Positions 19,889-44,598 of a DNA stretch of 51,575 nucleotides are shown piece by piece. Each line of letters opens with the position of its first letter. Within the stretch, counting starts at the first letter, position 1. This stretch comes from Methanoculleus sp. (GTDB lineage: Archaea; Halobacteriota; Methanomicrobia; Methanomicrobiales; Methanoculleaceae), in contig NZ_JASEFJ010000013.1 of assembly GCF_030019085.1 (NCBI RefSeq), positions 1-51,575 of the forward strand. Reading direction: 5' to 3'. The position numbers and the translations under genes are program-made. The notes beneath the pieces were generated by a model. It had not been told where the DNA came from. It was given only the letters and a program-made list of their open reading frames with translations, and ran no database searches.

Positions 19889-20846
19889 GTGACTGCTCCC
19901 CTGATTAAAATCAGGGCATCCTGGGTATTACCCCTGAGATTGCAGCCCCAATCCCATAATATTGATCGCCGCGTTCTGAACCCGGTCCATCACCAACCCA
20001 CAATGCGGGCAGGAGTGGACACGATCAGAGAGCATCTTAGCGACGAACATACCACACCTGGAACACTGCTGTGATGTGTTCCTGGGGTTCACCGGGATCA
20101 CACGAGAACCAGCCTCTTCCGCTTTCTTCCCTGTGATCGTGATGAACCGGTTCCATGAAGTCTGGTGAGCGAAATTGTGGCGCCGATTCGCAATCCGTTC
20201 GTGGATGCGTGCAACAACCATTCTGACTTTCTTCCGTTCAGGAGTGCCTTTCTCAACTTTTGAGGGGCTTCTCTCTCACCTTCGCAAGCGCTTTCTCGTC
20301 AGTATGGAAGAACCGGGGGTTCTCGATCTTCTCCCCGTTTGAGAGGGTGGCAAATGATTCGAGACCCACATCGACCCCGACCACAGTGTCTTTCTCTCCT
20401 GCGGGAGCGGGTTCATACTCGACCGAGAAACAGGCATACCACTTTCCAGTCGCAGTACGGTGAATCGTGAGAGTCTTGATATTACCTTCGATCGGGCGGT
20501 GGAGGACGATAGGGATGATCATTGAGGTGGAAACCAGACTGTGGATACAGGCTTTGAACGCAAGATCGACGCGCATCTTGACATTCTGCAATACCTGAGA
20601 ATAGACTGGATTCAGTTCAGGGTGGTCCTTCTTCAACTGTGTTAGGATTTTGTTAGTATCATAGTACGATAGAGAACGTTGTTCCTGTTCCCACGCGTTC
20701 TTTCGCAATGCGAGTGTCTCGTTATAGACCCAACGGCATGTGTACAGTGTCTTCTCAAGAAGAGTCACCTGAGCCTTTGTTGGATAGAGTCGATAACGAT
20801 ACGATTTACGAATTACTTTATATACGATCTGTTCTAATAGATGCAT
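19889..20846 (-). mobile_element. tnpB: Degenerate IS200/IS605-family tnpB element with right-end hairpin
   Basis: Two minus-strand frames (about 20253-20846 and 19928-20221) are pieces of one TnpB. N-terminal YRYRLYPTKAQ, RuvC-I VVGVDVG and the C-terminal zinc finger (CSRCGMFVAK, CPHCG) with D-R-V-Q-N-A-A are present. Lesions: a deletion after KMRVDLAFKA, a frameshift near REKPLKS (an extra base in a C run), and a deletion after NFAHQTS that removes the RuvC-II glutamate. The nuclease is therefore dead. Just beyond the stop, CCCTGATT/AATCAGGG at 19898-19915 followed by a GAGCAGTCAC-like sequence resembles the element's right end, the part that in active elements yields omega RNA. Confidence 0.85.
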
Positions 20847-37749: not shown

Positions 37750-37795
37750 GTAAATATAAAGATTAAAGTGTCGAAGTATGAGATACGATAAAATG
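37750..37795. promoter_or_regulatory. Divergent promoter region carS / radical SAM gene
   Basis: AT-rich gap between the two starts. CTTTATATTTACTG on the minus strand (about 37749-37762) is a TATA box at the right distance for carS. On the plus strand TAAATATAAAG or ATACGATAAAATG could serve the radical SAM gene. Confidence 0.5.
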
Positions 37796-37813
37796 AGTGG
37801 GCACGGTGAGAGA

Positions 37814-39289
37814 ATGCTTGTGAAGAAGACAAAAAGCCTCTGCCCGACATGCGGTCGTGTGCTCGACGCCGATGTCGTCGAAGAGGAGGGGCAGATCTGG
37901 CTGGTCCGCACCTGCCCTGAACATGGTTTATATCGTGGGCTCTACTGGTCGGACGCAGAGATGTACCGGCGGTTCGACGCCTACGAGAGTGTCGGGAACG
38001 GCGTTTTAAACCCGCAGAAAACCCCCTCAGCGACAGGATGCCCAAACGATTGCGGTCTCTGCTCAAACCACCGGTCGACTACTCTGCTTGCAAACATCGA
38101 TCTGACGAACCGGTGTAACCTGAACTGTGATTTCTGTTTCGCGAACGCCAGAGCGTGTGGGTTCGTCTACGAACCAACCTTCGAGCAGGTAGTAGGAATG
38201 CTGCGACTGCTGCGTGAGGAGAAACCTGTTCCGGCTCCTGCCGTCCAGTTTTCCGGCGGAGAGCCGACGCTGAGAGACGACCTGCCCGACATCATCCGCG
38301 TGGCAAAAGAGTTCGGGATCTCCCAGGTGCAGGTCGCTACAAACGGGATTCGACTGGCGCAGGACGCCGACTACGTCCGGGAACTGAAGGAAGCAGGACT
38401 CTCGACGGTCTACCTCCACTTCGACGGCTTAACCCGCGAGACGAACACCAAACTTGGAAGCGATCTGCGTGCCGTCGAGAACTGTGAGAAGATCGGGATG
38501 GGCGTTGTGCTGGTCCCGACGATCATAAAGGGCAGGAACGATCACGAGGCTGGCGCTATCATCAAATACGCTGCCGACCATTTCAAAACCATTCGGGGCG
38601 TAAACTTTCAGCCTGTGGCGTTCACGGGGGCCGCAAGCGAGGATGATGTAAGGAAAGAGCGGATCACCATCCCGGAACTTTCGGAGCGGATCGAGGAGCA
38701 GACGGACGGTGTCATCAAGAAGGACTTCTTCTACCCCGTGCCCTGCGTCGTCCCGATCTCCGATCTCGTCGAGGCATACACAGGCAAACCCCAGATCAGG
38801 TTCACCACCCACCAGCACTGCGGTGCGGCGACATACGTCTTTGTCACCGATGAGGGTATGATCCCGATAAACAGGATGGTGGATGTCGATGCGTTCTTTG
38901 AGTCGGTCGAGAAGATGGCGACAAGGCTTGCAAAGGGCGGGTCGCTCAACAAGTACGTGACCCTTGTTGAGGGTGTCAAGGATGTCTACACCTCCACCAG
39001 GAAGGCGGAATACAAGAACACCGGGGAGTTGATGAAACTTATAACGAAGGCGCTCGTGCTGCAGAACTTCGAGGCACTGCGCGACTTCCACTGGAACGCC
39101 CTCTTCATCGGTATGATGCACTTCATGGACAGATACAACTACGACCTCTCCAGGGTGGAGCGGTGCTGTATCCACTACGCAACTCCCGACGGTCGCCTGA
39201 TCCCGTTCTGTACATACAACAGCGGCCCGGTCCACCGCGAGCAGGTCTGGAAGGAGTTTGCGCAAGCAAGCAAACGTGAAGATGAGTGA
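37814..39289 (+). CDS. Radical SAM protein, tetraether lipid synthase (Tes/MJ0619) family
   Basis: About 491 residues. An N-terminal cysteine domain (LCPTCGRVLDADVV and RTCPEHGLYRGLYW) is followed by a second cysteine cluster (GCPNDCGLCSNH) and then the radical SAM core with NRCNLNCDFCFANA (CX3CX2C) and QFSGGEPTLRDDLP. A C-terminal segment adds further conserved cysteines (QHCGAATYV, RCCIHYATPDG, PFCTY). This multi-cluster layout matches MJ0619-like enzymes, of which Tes joins two archaeol chains to form tetraethers. Location next to carS supports a lipid role. Start ATG 37814 has GGTGAGAGA just upstream, better than the ATG at 37778. Confidence 0.85.
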   Translation: MLVKKTKSLCPTCGRVLDADVVEEEGQIWLVRTCPEHGLYRGLYWSDAEMYRRFDAYESVGNGVLNPQKTPSATGCPNDCGLCSNHRSTTLLANIDLTNRCNLNCDFCFANARACGFVYEPTFEQVVGMLRLLREEKPVPAPAVQFSGGEPTLRDDLPDIIRVAKEFGISQVQVATNGIRLAQDADYVRELKEAGLSTVYLHFDGLTRETNTKLGSDLRAVENCEKIGMGVVLVPTIIKGRNDHEAGAIIKYAADHFKTIRGVNFQPVAFTGAASEDDVRKERITIPELSERIEEQTDGVIKKDFFYPVPCVVPISDLVEAYTGKPQIRFTTHQHCGAATYVFVTDEGMIPINRMVDVDAFFESVEKMATRLAKGGSLNKYVTLVEGVKDVYTSTRKAEYKNTGELMKLITKALVLQNFEALRDFHWNALFIGMMHFMDRYNYDLSRVERCCIHYATPDGRLIPFCTYNSGPVHREQVWKEFAQASKREDE

Positions 39290-39356: not shown

Positions 39357-40298
39357 TCAGGGGAACGGCAGTTCGTAGCCTTCACCATCCTCCAGGACAA
39401 GCGATGCTATGGCGAGATCCTGGATGGCAAGCCCCGTTGAGTCAAAGACTGTGACCGCATCCGGGGACGACCGCCCCTTCTTCCCTATGACCACCTCGCC
39501 CAGGGTTCCCGCGATCATTGCAGGGTCATACAACCCGGTGCTGATCGGGACGTTGACCTCCCCTGAGTGGATAGCCTGTTCGCGCTCGTCTACGAAGACC
39601 TCGGCCCTCAGGAGGATCGCGGGGTCGAGTTCCTGTTTCCCGGGGGCATCTGCACCGATAGCGTTGATGTGCGTCCCTTCATGGACCCATTCTTCCATAA
39701 CGAGAGGCTCTCTCGATGGTGTTGTAGTGACGAGCACGTCACAGTCGCAGGCGCGCTCGATCGAGACAGGGCGGGCGCTGTAGTCGGCATACCGCGCGGC
39801 AAACGCCGCAGCGGTCTTTTCGTTCCGGCTCCAGACCCTCACCTCCTCGATCGTGAAGGCGGCGGCCATCGCCTCAACCTGCGCCTCCGCCTGCCGTCCG
39901 GCACCAACGAGCCCGAGGGTGAGGGTAGACTGTCGGGGAGAGAGGTATCGTGCAGCCACGGCACCTCCCGCCCCCGTTCGAAGCGCGGTCAGGTCGGTGG
40001 CGTTGATCAACGCCTTCGGGAGCCCGGTATCCACATCGATGATCACCGTCAGCGCCATGACCGTTGGAAGCCCATGAATCCGATTCTCGGGGTGGACGTT
40101 AACTATCTTCACCCCGGCTATCCCGGCCGCCGGGAGGTAGGCCGGCATCGTCCTGAAGTCTCCGGTCTTACCGAAGGTCACGTAGACCTTGGGTGGCATC
40201 TGGACGTTGCCCCTCCCGTGCTCGGCAAAGGCCGCCTCGATCACCCGGTTCACACCGGTATACGAGGGGTAGCCGGAATGAACGGGATAATACTTCAA
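39357..40298 (-). CDS. Alanine dehydrogenase / ornithine cyclodeaminase family protein
   Basis: A 313-residue NAD(P)-dependent enzyme of the ornithine cyclodeaminase/mu-crystallin superfamily. The substrate-side lysine in GVKIVNVHPEN, the conserved LTALRTGAGGAVAARYL, and the Rossmann loop LGLVGAGRQAEAQVEA are intact. The GADAPGKQELDP segment is typical too. Archaeal members include a true alanine dehydrogenase (pyruvate amination), while others are cyclodeaminases; the sequence here fits the archaeal AlaDH type, but that cannot be proven by eye. It is a single gene on the minus strand. Confidence 0.88.
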   Translation of the reverse strand: MKYYPVHSGYPSYTGVNRVIEAAFAEHGRGNVQMPPKVYVTFGKTGDFRTMPAYLPAAGIAGVKIVNVHPENRIHGLPTVMALTVIIDVDTGLPKALINATDLTALRTGAGGAVAARYLSPRQSTLTLGLVGAGRQAEAQVEAMAAAFTIEEVRVWSRNEKTAAAFAARYADYSARPVSIERACDCDVLVTTTPSREPLVMEEWVHEGTHINAIGADAPGKQELDPAILLRAEVFVDEREQAIHSGEVNVPISTGLYDPAMIAGTLGEVVIGKKGRSSPDAVTVFDSTGLAIQDLAIASLVLEDGEGYELPFP

Positions 40299-40415: not shown

Positions 40416-41078
40416 TTACCCGCGGTTCTCCACCATCCCACTTATCGAGAGCCGGATCAAACCCAGGCTGGCGTCGGGTTCTGCAAGTATGCAGATGTAG
40501 AGATCGTTGTAGGGCGCGATTATGAACTTCCCCCGGGGGGTCTCGAGGATTACCTGGGAGAGACCGCCCATCTCCATATCGGCGGTGATATGGCTTCCGG
40601 CACGGAGAAGGTCCTCGGCGACCGCGGCCACCTTCTCAAAGTCCGCCGAGCCGACCGACTGGATGGCAAACCCATCATGGAAGAGCGAGACCGCAACAAC
40701 GCCCGGCTGCCGCGCGATCTGCTGGAGAGCAGCCATCTCCGGGGATGGGGGCGCTGTCTCAACCCCGGTGACAATGCACCCCCTCTCGATCGAGGCTTCC
40801 CGGGCCACCCGCGTCTCTTCGGCGGTATACGCGATGAGCTCGTAGACCAGCGACGGGCGCTCAAGGAGGTACCTGTAGGCGCCATCTCCGCTGAGCAGGA
40901 TACCCCCGCCGGTATCCTCAAAGGCGGCGCCGTAAGGCTTTCCGTCCTCAAGCAGGACAAAACCGGTTCCACCGCCCTTCTCCGTGATCCTCAGCGCCCC
41001 GGTGAAATGAGGGCTGACCGATGCAAGGGTCGAGAGCGGCCCCTGCAGTCTACCGAGTGAGATGCCGTCCGGGAGCAT
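40416..41078 (-). CDS. Roadblock/LC7-domain protein with N-terminal extension
   Basis: A 220-residue protein, the last gene of the hydrogenase operon. The C-terminal 110 residues form a Roadblock/LC7 domain (IARQPGVVAVSLFHDGFAIQ, then a helix, then LSQVILETPRGKFIIAPYND). The N-terminal half (SPHFTGALRITEKGGGTGFV, LLEDGKPYGAAFED) is a beta-rich segment found in other archaeal Roadblock proteins. Roadblock proteins such as MglB regulate small GTPases or act as dimeric scaffolds. Here the neighbour is a second Roadblock gene, 4 nt upstream, and the hydrogenase large subunit. Confidence 0.85.
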   Translation of the reverse strand: MLPDGISLGRLQGPLSTLASVSPHFTGALRITEKGGGTGFVLLEDGKPYGAAFEDTGGGILLSGDGAYRYLLERPSLVYELIAYTAEETRVAREASIERGCIVTGVETAPPSPEMAALQQIARQPGVVAVSLFHDGFAIQSVGSADFEKVAAVAEDLLRAGSHITADMEMGGLSQVILETPRGKFIIAPYNDLYICILAEPDASLGLIRLSISGMVENRG

Positions 41079-41082
41079 CGTC

Positions 41083-41439
41083 TCACAGAGCGGCTATTAT
41101 CCTGTCCTTGTTCTTCTTCAGTTCGTAGCGGATTCTCCCGACGTTTACGTTCGCGTTCGCCACTATGGCGATCAACTCATCCTCTGAGAGCGGTGAGAGC
41201 AGAATCGGGCCGTTCTCAAGTTCGACAAGCATCTGGTGCATCTCCCCTTTCCCGAGTTCGTTGCTCATAGCCTCGGAGGTACCCATGCCCGTCGATGCCA
41301 TGGCGCCCAGGGCCTCAACATCCACATCACCGGCAACAACGCTCTCGATCACAAAACCGTCCCGTCCCGCCACGACGGCGGCGGTAACCCCATCAAGCTT
41401 AAGGAACTCCCCCAGGATCTGTTTTAACATGCTTTCCAT
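41083..41439 (-). CDS. Roadblock/LC7-domain protein (MglB-like)
   Basis: A 118-residue single Roadblock/LC7 domain. The fold pattern is clear: helix LKQILGEFLKLDGVTAA, strands VVAGRDGFVIESV, helix GAMASTGMGTSEAMSNEL, strands QMLVELENGPILLSPLSEDE, helix GRIRYELKKNKDRI. It resembles MglB-type dimers, which activate MglA GTPases. No GTPase gene is in this operon. It starts 13 nt after the hydrogenase large-subunit gene. Confidence 0.9.
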   Translation of the reverse strand: MESMLKQILGEFLKLDGVTAAVVAGRDGFVIESVVAGDVDVEALGAMASTGMGTSEAMSNELGKGEMHQMLVELENGPILLSPLSEDELIAIVANANVNVGRIRYELKKNKDRIIAAL

Positions 41440-41452
41440 ACTTTAAATCACC

Positions 41453-42820
41453 TCAAAACTTTCTGATAACCTCAATCTTCATAGGCATCTTCCCGATCGC
41501 GTGCGTGGCACATGAGATACAGGGGTCGTACGCCCTTATGACCATCTCGATCTGGTTGGCCGCACCATCGCTCAGCGCCCCGTTCTCCACAACCCGGCGG
41601 GCGACATCTTCCACCCCGCGGTCTATGGCGTAGTTGTTCTGGCAGGTCGCCACGATCAGGTTGCACCGTTCAATGATTCCGGCATCGTTGACGGTGTAGT
41701 CGTGGATGAGCGTTCCCCGCGGGGCCTCAATTATACCGACACCGCGCCGGTTCACAACCTCTCCTGCGGGTGTCCGGATATCTGACCCGGTTATGTCCTT
41801 ATCGGAGAGGAGTTTTACCGCCCGTTCGCACGAGGCGATGAACTCGACGTAGCGTGCCAGGTTGTAGGCGAGCGCTGCCTGTGAGACTGATCCGAACCGC
41901 TCGCGATACTCCGCAAGCGCGGCGTCCGCGTGCTCCGTGCCCATCCTCTCCACGATGTTCAGCCTGGCAAGCGGCCCGACACGGTAGTTCTCACCGCCCT
42001 TGAGCCGGACGAACTTCAGGTATGACCAGTCCTCTGAGTACTCCTCGATAAACTTTGTGTAATCCGCTCCGGTGAACGATCCGATCCTTCCTCCCTCGGG
42101 GTTTAGCACCGCAACAGGCCCTTCGGATGTTGAGTAGACACCGTGATTGGTCATCCCCATGAACCCCGTCCTGACGGCGCCGAACTCAGTGTCGACACCG
42201 TCGAGGAGCGTCCGCGCGATCTCCCAGCCTTCAAGAGCGATCCCGAGCGCTTCACCAGCCATGGTGGCCAGTTCGGCCCTCTTTGCCTCGGTTAAGGGTG
42301 CCGACATCCCGCCGGGGAGGGCGTTTGAGGGGTGGATGGGTTTGCCGCCGATCGCCTCCGTCAACCGCTGGCCGAACTTCCTGACCGCGATCGCCTTCTT
42401 TGCAAGGTCAGGAGAGTGATGGGCGAGGCCGATGACGTTACGGGTCTCCGGCGGGCACTCGTGACCCAGGATGAAGTCGGGGGCCGCGAGCATGAAGAAG
42501 TGCAGGGAGTGGGAGTGGATGTACTGTCCGAGGTTGAGGAGTTCGCGGAGTTTCTTTCCTGTGGCGGGGGGTTCGACACCGAAGATCTGGTCGGTGGCTT
42601 TTGCCGCCGCGAGATGGTGCGAGGTCGGGCAGATCCCGCATATACGTGGCGTTATCCGTGGTGCTTCCTCGATTGCAGCCCCGCTGAGGAACTTCTCAAA
42701 CCCTCTCAGTTCGACTACCTGGAAATGGGCTGAGTCGACTTCACCGCGGTCGTTGAGGTAGACCCTGACGTCTGCATGACCCTCGATCCGGGTCACCGGG
42801 TTGATCGTGATCTCTTTCAT
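41453..42820 (-). CDS. NiFe hydrogenase large subunit, group 3 (Mvh-like)
   Basis: A 455-residue NiFe hydrogenase catalytic subunit. The N-terminal ligand motif RICGICPTSHH and the C-terminal DPCISCATH are both complete, so the Ni-Fe site can form. A C-terminal extension of 15 residues (AIGKMPMKIEVIRKF) after the last His requires cleavage by a maturation protease. Size and sequence are nearer to F420-non-reducing MvhA/VhuA than to FrhA, but no mvhD, mvhB or frhB is in this operon, so its electron acceptor is not evident. It overlaps the small-subunit gene by 4 nt (ATGA). HypD encoded at 9422 belongs to its maturation set. Confidence 0.93.
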   Translation of the reverse strand: MKEITINPVTRIEGHADVRVYLNDRGEVDSAHFQVVELRGFEKFLSGAAIEEAPRITPRICGICPTSHHLAAAKATDQIFGVEPPATGKKLRELLNLGQYIHSHSLHFFMLAAPDFILGHECPPETRNVIGLAHHSPDLAKKAIAVRKFGQRLTEAIGGKPIHPSNALPGGMSAPLTEAKRAELATMAGEALGIALEGWEIARTLLDGVDTEFGAVRTGFMGMTNHGVYSTSEGPVAVLNPEGGRIGSFTGADYTKFIEEYSEDWSYLKFVRLKGGENYRVGPLARLNIVERMGTEHADAALAEYRERFGSVSQAALAYNLARYVEFIASCERAVKLLSDKDITGSDIRTPAGEVVNRRGVGIIEAPRGTLIHDYTVNDAGIIERCNLIVATCQNNYAIDRGVEDVARRVVENGALSDGAANQIEMVIRAYDPCISCATHAIGKMPMKIEVIRKF

Positions 42821-43740
42821 CTGCTCCTCTCCTTTACCAGGTCCCGGATCTTTGAGACCTCTTTGTCCTCCATGATCAGGCTACCGATGGTGAATGGGTA
42901 CATTGTGTGCGCGATGTCGTAGAGTTCTTTCTCCACCTCTTTCTCGGGCTTACCGGTGAGATCGGCGATCCTCCGCACCATCATGCTGTAGATGTCGCGG
43001 CAGGGTTCGCGCAGGATGTCCAGAGACGGGCCGTTGCAACCGTGACAGGGGACGTTGTTCTTCGGGCAGGCGGCGGCGCATCTTCCGAAGGTGACGCTCC
43101 CGAGACAGAGGTAACCCTGCCCGAGCAGGCAGTGTTCGCGGTCGGGGACGCCCTCGTAACGGCGTTTGAGTCTCCAGTTATCGACCGGCCCCATCTTCCT
43201 GTCGCAATCGGCACAGACGGATTTGCGCGAGAGTTCGAGTTTGTCTCCGGAGACCAGCGCGGGGATGATCTGTTTGAGGTAGATCTCTTTTGGCGGGCAG
43301 CCCGTGATGTAGTAGTCGATCTTTGTGAGGTCGCCAACCGCAAAAGCCCGGTAGAGGAACGGAGGCACGTCCGTCGGGATGACGCCGTCGGGTTTCACGG
43401 TCTCTGCCTCCCGGTAGACGTATGAGAAGATCTCATCGTTTGGGTGCAGCATCGAGAGACCCGATATGCCGCCGTAACAGGCACAGGTTCCGAGCGCGAC
43501 GAGGGTCTTTGCACGTCTCCGGATCTTCTCCAGGCGTTCCTGGTTCTCGGCGTTGCGGACGGCTCCTGTCACAAACGCGATATCGATGCCCTCAGGAGGT
43601 TCCTTGACGTCCATGATCACCGGGGAGTAGACGATCTCGGCCTTATCAACAACGTCGAGCAATACCTCGTGGAGGTCCAACACCGCGATCGTGCAGCCCG
43701 AACATCCTGCCAGTTCTTCGATAGCAATCTTCACGCTCAT
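42817..43740 (-). CDS. NiFe hydrogenase small subunit, group 3 (Mvh-like)
   Basis: A 307-residue iron-sulfur small subunit. The proximal cluster ligands are visible in LAGCSGCTIAVLDLH, ALGTCACYGG and YYITGCPP. Distal cysteine sets follow in KSVCADCDRK, HCLLGQGYLCLGSVTFGRC, AACPKNN and VPCHGCNGP. The size matches MvhG/VhuG, which have three clusters. FrhG differs by carrying a C-terminal ferredoxin domain, absent here. It begins 4 nt after the V4R-like gene, so the order is ferredoxin, V4R-like, small, large, Roadblock, Roadblock. Confidence 0.93.
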   Translation of the reverse strand: MSVKIAIEELAGCSGCTIAVLDLHEVLLDVVDKAEIVYSPVIMDVKEPPEGIDIAFVTGAVRNAENQERLEKIRRRAKTLVALGTCACYGGISGLSMLHPNDEIFSYVYREAETVKPDGVIPTDVPPFLYRAFAVGDLTKIDYYITGCPPKEIYLKQIIPALVSGDKLELSRKSVCADCDRKMGPVDNWRLKRRYEGVPDREHCLLGQGYLCLGSVTFGRCAAACPKNNVPCHGCNGPSLDILREPCRDIYSMMVRRIADLTGKPEKEVEKELYDIAHTMYPFTIGSLIMEDKEVSKIRDLVKERSR

Positions 43741-43744
43741 CGCC

Positions 43745-44308
43745 TCACTTCAGGACCAGTTTCTTAAGGCAGGCGTTCGGGCCGGTGTGGACGATCTCCA
43801 GTTTGGCCTTTCTGCCGGTGATCTCCTCGATCGCGCCGACGACGTAGCCAAATAGGGTCTGGCAGAGCGGGCCGCCCTGGTCAAGACCGTTGCGCCGGAG
43901 CGTCTGACGGACGATGCAGTCGTGGAAGACGAGGTAGATGAAAGTCTCGCCGTTCTCTTCGATGATGTAGGAGTCTTTGTCTTCGGGTTTCCAGACCTCG
44001 AAGGAGTACTGTCCCCGGAGCAGGTCGGAGAGCTCGTGGAGCGCTCCTTCGACGTCGTCTCGTTTCTGGAAGTACTGGGCGACCTCATGACCGAACTTCT
44101 TTCCGGCACGGTAGGTGACGGCGTTTGCCCCCCTGCCAGCGATCTCTTCGAGTGACCTGATCACGAGCCCGTTGAGTTTCATCAGACCGTGTAGAGTCTG
44201 TTCAAGGTCTTTTGGTTTAGGTGAGCATTCCAGAGGGACGTCCTCGGAACGGTAGACCAGATCCGTCTGGAAGGCTTCGTGCATCTCGTCGACATAGCCT
44301 GCAGTCAT
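43745..44308 (-). CDS. V4R/MetOD1-like putative sensor protein
   Basis: A 187-residue soluble protein. A helical N-terminus (about 1-60) leads to an alpha/beta C-terminal domain with conserved Cys and Gly positions: FHDCIVRQTLRRNG, QGGPLCQTLFGYVVGAIEE and HTGPNACLKKLVLK. This is the pattern of V4R-type small-molecule-binding domains and of the related methanogen output domain 1 (MetOD1). Such domains bind hydrophobic ligands or metals and often act in sensing. The start overlaps the ferredoxin stop by 1 nt (TGATG). The functional link to the hydrogenase is inferred only from operon structure. Confidence 0.75.
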   Translation of the reverse strand: MTAGYVDEMHEAFQTDLVYRSEDVPLECSPKPKDLEQTLHGLMKLNGLVIRSLEEIAGRGANAVTYRAGKKFGHEVAQYFQKRDDVEGALHELSDLLRGQYSFEVWKPEDKDSYIIEENGETFIYLVFHDCIVRQTLRRNGLDQGGPLCQTLFGYVVGAIEEITGRKAKLEIVHTGPNACLKKLVLK

Positions 44309-44550
44309 CAGATCACCTTTTTGAGCATCTCACATACGTGGATGTCGATGTAGTGTCGCTTTGCAGCGTAGATTCCGCGATGTTCAAGCGCCTGAGCGGG
44401 GCAGATCTCGTGGCAGGAGAGGCACCCCATACAGTTGTTCGGCCTGACTGCGACGCTGACGTTGTTCTGGAGTTCGTACACGTGCATGGGGCAGTCTTTT
44501 ACGCAGAGTCCGCACCCGACGCACGCGTCCTTGTCCACATGTATCTCCAT
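44308..44550 (-). CDS. 2[4Fe-4S] ferredoxin
   Basis: An 80-residue ferredoxin with two classical cluster motifs, CVGCGLCVKDCP and CMGCLSCHEICP, and a short C-terminal extension with a lone cysteine (IDIHVCEMLKKVI). As first gene of the six-gene hydrogenase operon it is the obvious candidate electron carrier for the NiFe subunits, replacing the MvhD or FrhB found in known complexes. It may also be a permanent subunit of the complex. Confidence 0.93.
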   Translation of the reverse strand: MEIHVDKDACVGCGLCVKDCPMHVYELQNNVSVAVRPNNCMGCLSCHEICPAQALEHRGIYAAKRHYIDIHVCEMLKKVI

Positions 44551-44583: not shown

Positions 44584-44598
44584 TATTAAAAAATATAC
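44584..44598 (-). promoter_or_regulatory. TATA box of the hydrogenase operon
   Basis: Minus-strand GTATATTTTTTAATA lies 34-48 nt upstream of the ferredoxin ATG at 44550, so transcription should start about 10-20 nt before it. No other promoter is visible within the operon. Confidence 0.55.

Follow-up and report, generated by a model that had tools for sequence, protein, structure and literature searches.

Described systems approach the locus reported here from several sides. Among hydrogenases the nearest are the group 3c enzymes MvhAG/VhuAG, and the Methanoculleus enzyme is itself treated in the literature as an Mvh or bifurcating 3c hydrogenase (PMC2686161; PMC11201294). MvhD adjoins HdrABC in Methanomicrobiales, and members of the order without this hydrogenase retain MvhD-HdrABC (PMC2686161). 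The regulatory H2-sensing hydrogenases HupUV/HoxBC (group 2b) have no C-terminal extension on the large subunit. Roadblock, PATAN-like and MinD proteins occur together in the MglA/MglB and PATAN polarity systems and in archaeal FleN/MinD-Roadblock systems, which have been connected with type IV pili (PMC4858521), and the V4R fold is known from the sensor domains of MopR/DmpR and from TRAPP Bet3 (PMC2253512). A search of the open-access literature found no paper on a hydrogenase with V4R, Roadblock, PATAN and MinD partners. Methanomicrobiales are major hydrogenotrophic methanogens. The hydrogenase examined here has been filed as their Hdr-linked bifurcating enzyme, an assignment that, on the evidence of the genes, should be put to the test. 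In many methanogenic archaea its genes share one conserved block with those of Roadblock, V4R, PATAN-like and MinD proteins, which suggests a role in H2 sensing or in placement within the cell, and not just another metabolic hydrogenase.

The window, by which we mean the whole stretch of Methanoculleus DNA analysed (51,575 nucleotides), carries six minus-strand genes in a tight operon, with every ORF and all the spacings as described in an earlier reading made from the sequence only. The first gene encodes a two-cluster (2x[4Fe-4S]) ferredoxin (44308..44550; ORF, Pfam Fer4 domains and syntenic orthologues) and overlaps by 1 nt the gene of a V4R-fold protein of 187 aa (43745..44308; 32-sequence alignment, model and Foldseek). 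A 4-nt gap separates the latter from the MvhG/VhuG-like [NiFe]-hydrogenase small subunit (42817..43740; Pfam Oxidored_q6), which overlaps by 4 nt the Mvh-like large subunit (41453..42820; Pfam NiFeSe_Hases). Both active-site motifs of the large subunit, RICGICPTSH and DPCISCATH, are intact, as had been noted before. A Roadblock/LC7 protein of 118 aa (41083..41439; Pfam Robl_LC7, E 5e-17) follows after 13 nt, and after a further 4 nt the operon closes with a fusion of a PATAN/DUF4388-like N-terminal domain to a C-terminal Roadblock/LC7 domain (40416..41078; Robl_LC7). A TATA-like stretch, TATATTTTTTAATA (44584..44597, same strand), was picked by eye as a candidate promoter; it lies 34-47 nt ahead of the start codon of the ferredoxin gene.

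The large subunit was used as query against 150 Methanomicrobiales genomes, and neighbourhoods were laid out for many close matches. The genes for ferredoxin, V4R, small subunit, large subunit, Roadblock and PATAN-Roadblock keep their order and strand in every intact locus compared (four Methanomicrobiales families and Methanocella), and the operon is present in 23/23 Methanoculleus genomes with completeness of at least 90%. Families f5 and f6 gave only distant Frh-like large subunits (~30% identity). Between families, identity is 78-86% for Roadblock, 69-82% for V4R and 65-71% for the large subunit. The two accessory proteins are thus at least as conserved as the enzyme they accompany and are not chance neighbours, a reading that synteny rules out. 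They stay beside the subunits in relatives, and mvhD or frhB is never adjacent, so the earlier view of them as parts of the unit stands. A phylum-wide V4R search placed 39/39 strong matches in genomes that also hold an operon-type large subunit. Scanning with V4R patterns gave matches in Methanomicrobiales, Methanocella and Archaeoglobaceae only, the patterns being short, so that absence elsewhere is weak evidence.

Beside the operon, most relatives carry a second block, encoding a hydrogenase maturation protease, a PATAN/DUF4388-like protein, a membrane-anchored Roadblock-like protein and a MinD-family ATPase. The conserved unit is therefore larger than the six genes to which the sequence-only reading had confined it. 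Across the order, MinD and its Roadblock-like partner are no more than 6 kb away from the large subunit at 51/68 loci (chance ~1% for MinD, assuming two MinD genes in 2.4 Mb). MinD precedes the operon in f1 and in part of f2; in f3 and f4 it follows it. Genome G028 (2,478,101 bp), which we take to be M. marisnigri JR1, has on one strand protease, PATAN, membrane Roadblock and MinD, then 345 bp, then ferredoxin, V4R, small subunit, large subunit, Roadblock and PATAN-Roadblock. This ten-gene order agrees with the published tags Memar_1014 (maturation protease), Memar_1008 (small subunit) and Memar_1007 (large subunit), and in genomes of this type the two blocks may be two transcripts.

In the window's genome and in its nearest relative (G004) the second block has moved away from the operon, in the former to another contig. 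Two homologues were found in the window's own genome with a Methanocella MinD as query. One, on contig C8, is preceded by genes for a membrane-anchored Roadblock-like protein, a PATAN-like protein and a hydrogenase maturation protease; the membrane-anchored protein has a weak Pfam Roadblock match (E 0.12), its anchor and domain being assigned partly by eye. The second-block MinD is closest to A. fulgidus MinD-1 (1hyq, E 1e-75), followed by other MinD and FleN proteins, carries the Walker motif KGGTGKT and ends in ESFVERLARAIFRSKT, a candidate membrane-targeting helix, amphipathic in look as judged by eye only. The second MinD (L168, G000:C58, 20967-21737) lies near a Roadblock gene (19922-20173) whose product is the only other Pfam-detected Roadblock protein of the genome.

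V4R-hydrogenases accompany MinD also in Methanocella, in family f10 and in one Archaeoglobaceae genome. At the Methanocella loci the genes after the operon encode a PATAN-like protein, a protein of 237-323 aa and, where the available sequence extends far enough, a MinD-family ATPase. Family f10 has the order ferredoxin-V4R-small-large; downstream lies the gene of a PilB3-like ATPase, and upstream there is a divergent MinD gene. In locus L129 this secretion ATPase (373-2253) directly follows the V4R-type hydrogenase. The Archaeoglobaceae order is V4R-V4R-small-ferredoxin-large, followed at one of three loci by a membrane Roadblock-like protein, MinD, Roadblock and a PATAN-like protein. All three Archaeoglobaceae V4R-type large subunits (L131, L132, L133) stop exactly at the last active-site His, without C-terminal extension, and the window enzyme has a short one of 15 residues past that His. 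Absence of the extension was considered as proof of sensing and rejected, since another, non-V4R Archaeoglobaceae hydrogenase (L155, L156) also has none and the window enzyme has one.

In the V4R protein of the window itself Pfam detected no V4R domain, a PDB sequence search gave no match, and the single-sequence fold was poor. Built from the 32-sequence alignment, the model (m2af64502cd0a) reached pLDDT 82, and its best Foldseek matches in the PDB were the V4R sensor domains of MopR/DmpR/PoxR (MopR, E 1e-5), TRAPPC3/Bet3 and the V4R protein MJ1460. A V4R/Bet3 fold of the second operon product is supported by this predicted structure; to judge by the Foldseek neighbours it is a ligand-sensor fold. 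Unlike MopR/DmpR and TRAPP Bet3, the operon protein stands alone, its gene adjoins a hydrogenase, and it has its own invariant Cys/His set, the residues invariant in the alignment being Cys131, Cys149, Cys180, Arg134, Gln135, His174 and Asn178. The 118-aa Roadblock protein, one of the best-conserved products of the unit, matches Robl_LC7 structures in the PDB. Robl_LC7 was found in the PATAN-Roadblock fusion of 33/33 relatives; by hhalign the N-terminus of the fusion and the second-block PATAN-like protein are homologous (probability 95, E 3e-8), and DUF4388 matches were weak for both.

With MvhAG/VhuAG the operon enzyme shares both catalytic motifs and the large-subunit radiation, the tree placing it among the Mvh-like enzymes of group 3, the group proposed earlier. 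Its small subunit has MvhG as best PDB match (5odc_E, E 1e-69), with conserved cysteines in the aligned region. It differs from them in its scores, which lie below the equivalog cut-offs (VhuA, 380.8 bits against 800; VhuG, 236.8 against 450), in the lack of an adjacent MvhD/HdrABC, and in its ties to V4R, Roadblock, PATAN and MinD. The operon enzymes of Methanomicrobiales and Methanocella also group together in the tree (100/100), apart from the plain Mvh of Methanocella; for a single clade of all V4R-hydrogenases as against repeated origin, with f10 and Archaeoglobus in question, the AU test gave p 0.22. Since Methanocella has this plain Mvh-like pair in addition to the operon type, the latter cannot simply be equated with Mvh in these lineages. 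It probably has a function of its own, because of that separate pair and because MvhD-HdrABC is kept where it is missing (PMC2686161). The sequence-only reading had also argued from a lack of MvhD and FrhB. Neither is adjacent to the operon, but MvhD lies beside HdrABC on contig C6 of the same genome; the argument from a missing MvhD therefore falls, and an Hdr link in trans is possible.

Our leading reading, put at a probability of about 0.45, is a sensing or gated hydrogenase for H2 or redox state, the state of which would pass via ferredoxin and V4R to a membrane switch of Roadblock, PATAN and MinD. A regulated or H2-sensing hydrogenase had been suggested before, and we infer the same from the conserved accessory genes. 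The six genes would then be the catalytic half of a conserved ten-gene module. The hydrogenase would equilibrate with H2 and reduce its dedicated ferredoxin, and the V4R protein might read the redox state or another ligand, perhaps via a cofactor held by the invariant cysteines. The Roadblock and PATAN modules, partly membrane-bound, could hand this state to the MinD ATPase, which would switch on the membrane and position or gate a target; a type IV pilus-like filament is one possibility. In a bolder form of this reading the group-3 [NiFe]-hydrogenase would be an archaeal H2 sensor in direct control of the MinD/Roadblock/PATAN membrane switch, setting cell polarity or surface-filament placement in answer to H2; this we regard as unlikely.

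A proposed sensing role beside signalling proteins is shared with HupUV/HoxBC, and the Archaeoglobus relatives resemble those sensors in having no extension. The operon enzyme differs from them in belonging to group 3, in keeping its C-terminal extension and in having a maturation protease in the block, the last two features being those of ordinary enzymes and counting against a sensor. Also against a sensor, ORF and Pfam analysis found no histidine kinase among the operon genes or their immediate neighbours, and the unit has no transcription factor. From the MglA/MglB, PATAN and FleN/MinD pilus systems, with which the module shares Roadblock, PATAN-like and MinD proteins, it differs in having a hydrogenase at its core and no adjacent pilus genes. 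A partner GTPase had been suggested for the Roadblock proteins, yet no Arf-family match exceeded the cut-off of the one family model used in the 99.6%-complete genome; MinD is therefore the candidate NTPase of the module. A link to motility through co-occurrence with archaellin did not discriminate, archaellin being nearly ubiquitous and present in genomes without the operon too.

The main rival, rather less probable than the sensing or gated enzyme, is a catabolic Mvh-type hydrogenase feeding MvhD-HdrABC in trans, which Roadblock, PATAN and MinD would tether to the membrane or position there, for instance close to Eha or formylmethanofuran dehydrogenase. The MvhG-like small subunit with its conserved cysteines, the MvhD-HdrABC of the same genome, which also weighs against a sensor, and the literature assignment all speak for it. 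Set against these are the retention of MvhD-HdrABC in Methanomicrobiales without the hydrogenase, the plain Mvh-like pair of Methanocella and subunit scores far below the VhuA/VhuG cut-offs. In a 2021 study, moreover, the Hdr of Methanoculleus thermophilus was reportedly purified with formate dehydrogenase and not with hydrogenase. The sensing or gated enzyme with a membrane MinD switch is favoured because the operon type probably serves a separate function and because a connection of archaeal FleN/MinD and Roadblock proteins with type IV pili has been published (PMC4858521).

In all lineages examined, genes for a two-cluster ferredoxin of its own and for a V4R protein with conserved cysteines adjoin those of the hydrogenase. 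This would also suit a soluble H2:ferredoxin oxidoreductase that supplies or disposes of reduced ferredoxin for biosynthesis, in which V4R would be a redox subunit carrying a cofactor and the other proteins would be regulatory. We consider this improbable: it leaves the Roadblock-like proteins, PATAN and MinD unexplained, and at low H2 the reduction of ferredoxin by H2 is uphill unless ion motive force or bifurcation drives it. Least probable is that MinD, Roadblock and PATAN serve assembly of the hydrogenase or cofactor delivery to it, in a Mrp/CooC-like role. Some MinD-superfamily NTPases do insert Ni or FeS, and the maturation protease lies in the same block; against this, the ATPase is most like MinD/FleN proper, and Methanomicrobiales that lack the hydrogenase also have a paralogous pair of a MinD and a Roadblock-like protein. 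If the enzyme is a sensor or a positioned complex, H2 metabolism would be linked to cell organisation, and the module offers a concrete gene set for deletion and tagging.

The genes flanking the six-gene operon vary from family to family. Directly downstream in the window is an alanine dehydrogenase/ornithine cyclodeaminase-like gene (39357-40298, minus strand), which holds that place in family f1 only. A radical SAM protein that scores higher than the tetraether lipid synthase (Tes) cut-off (37778-39289, plus strand) lies near the operon in Methanoculleus relatives too, and locus L037 has a second, reverse-strand Roadblock/PATAN-Roadblock pair upstream of the operon.
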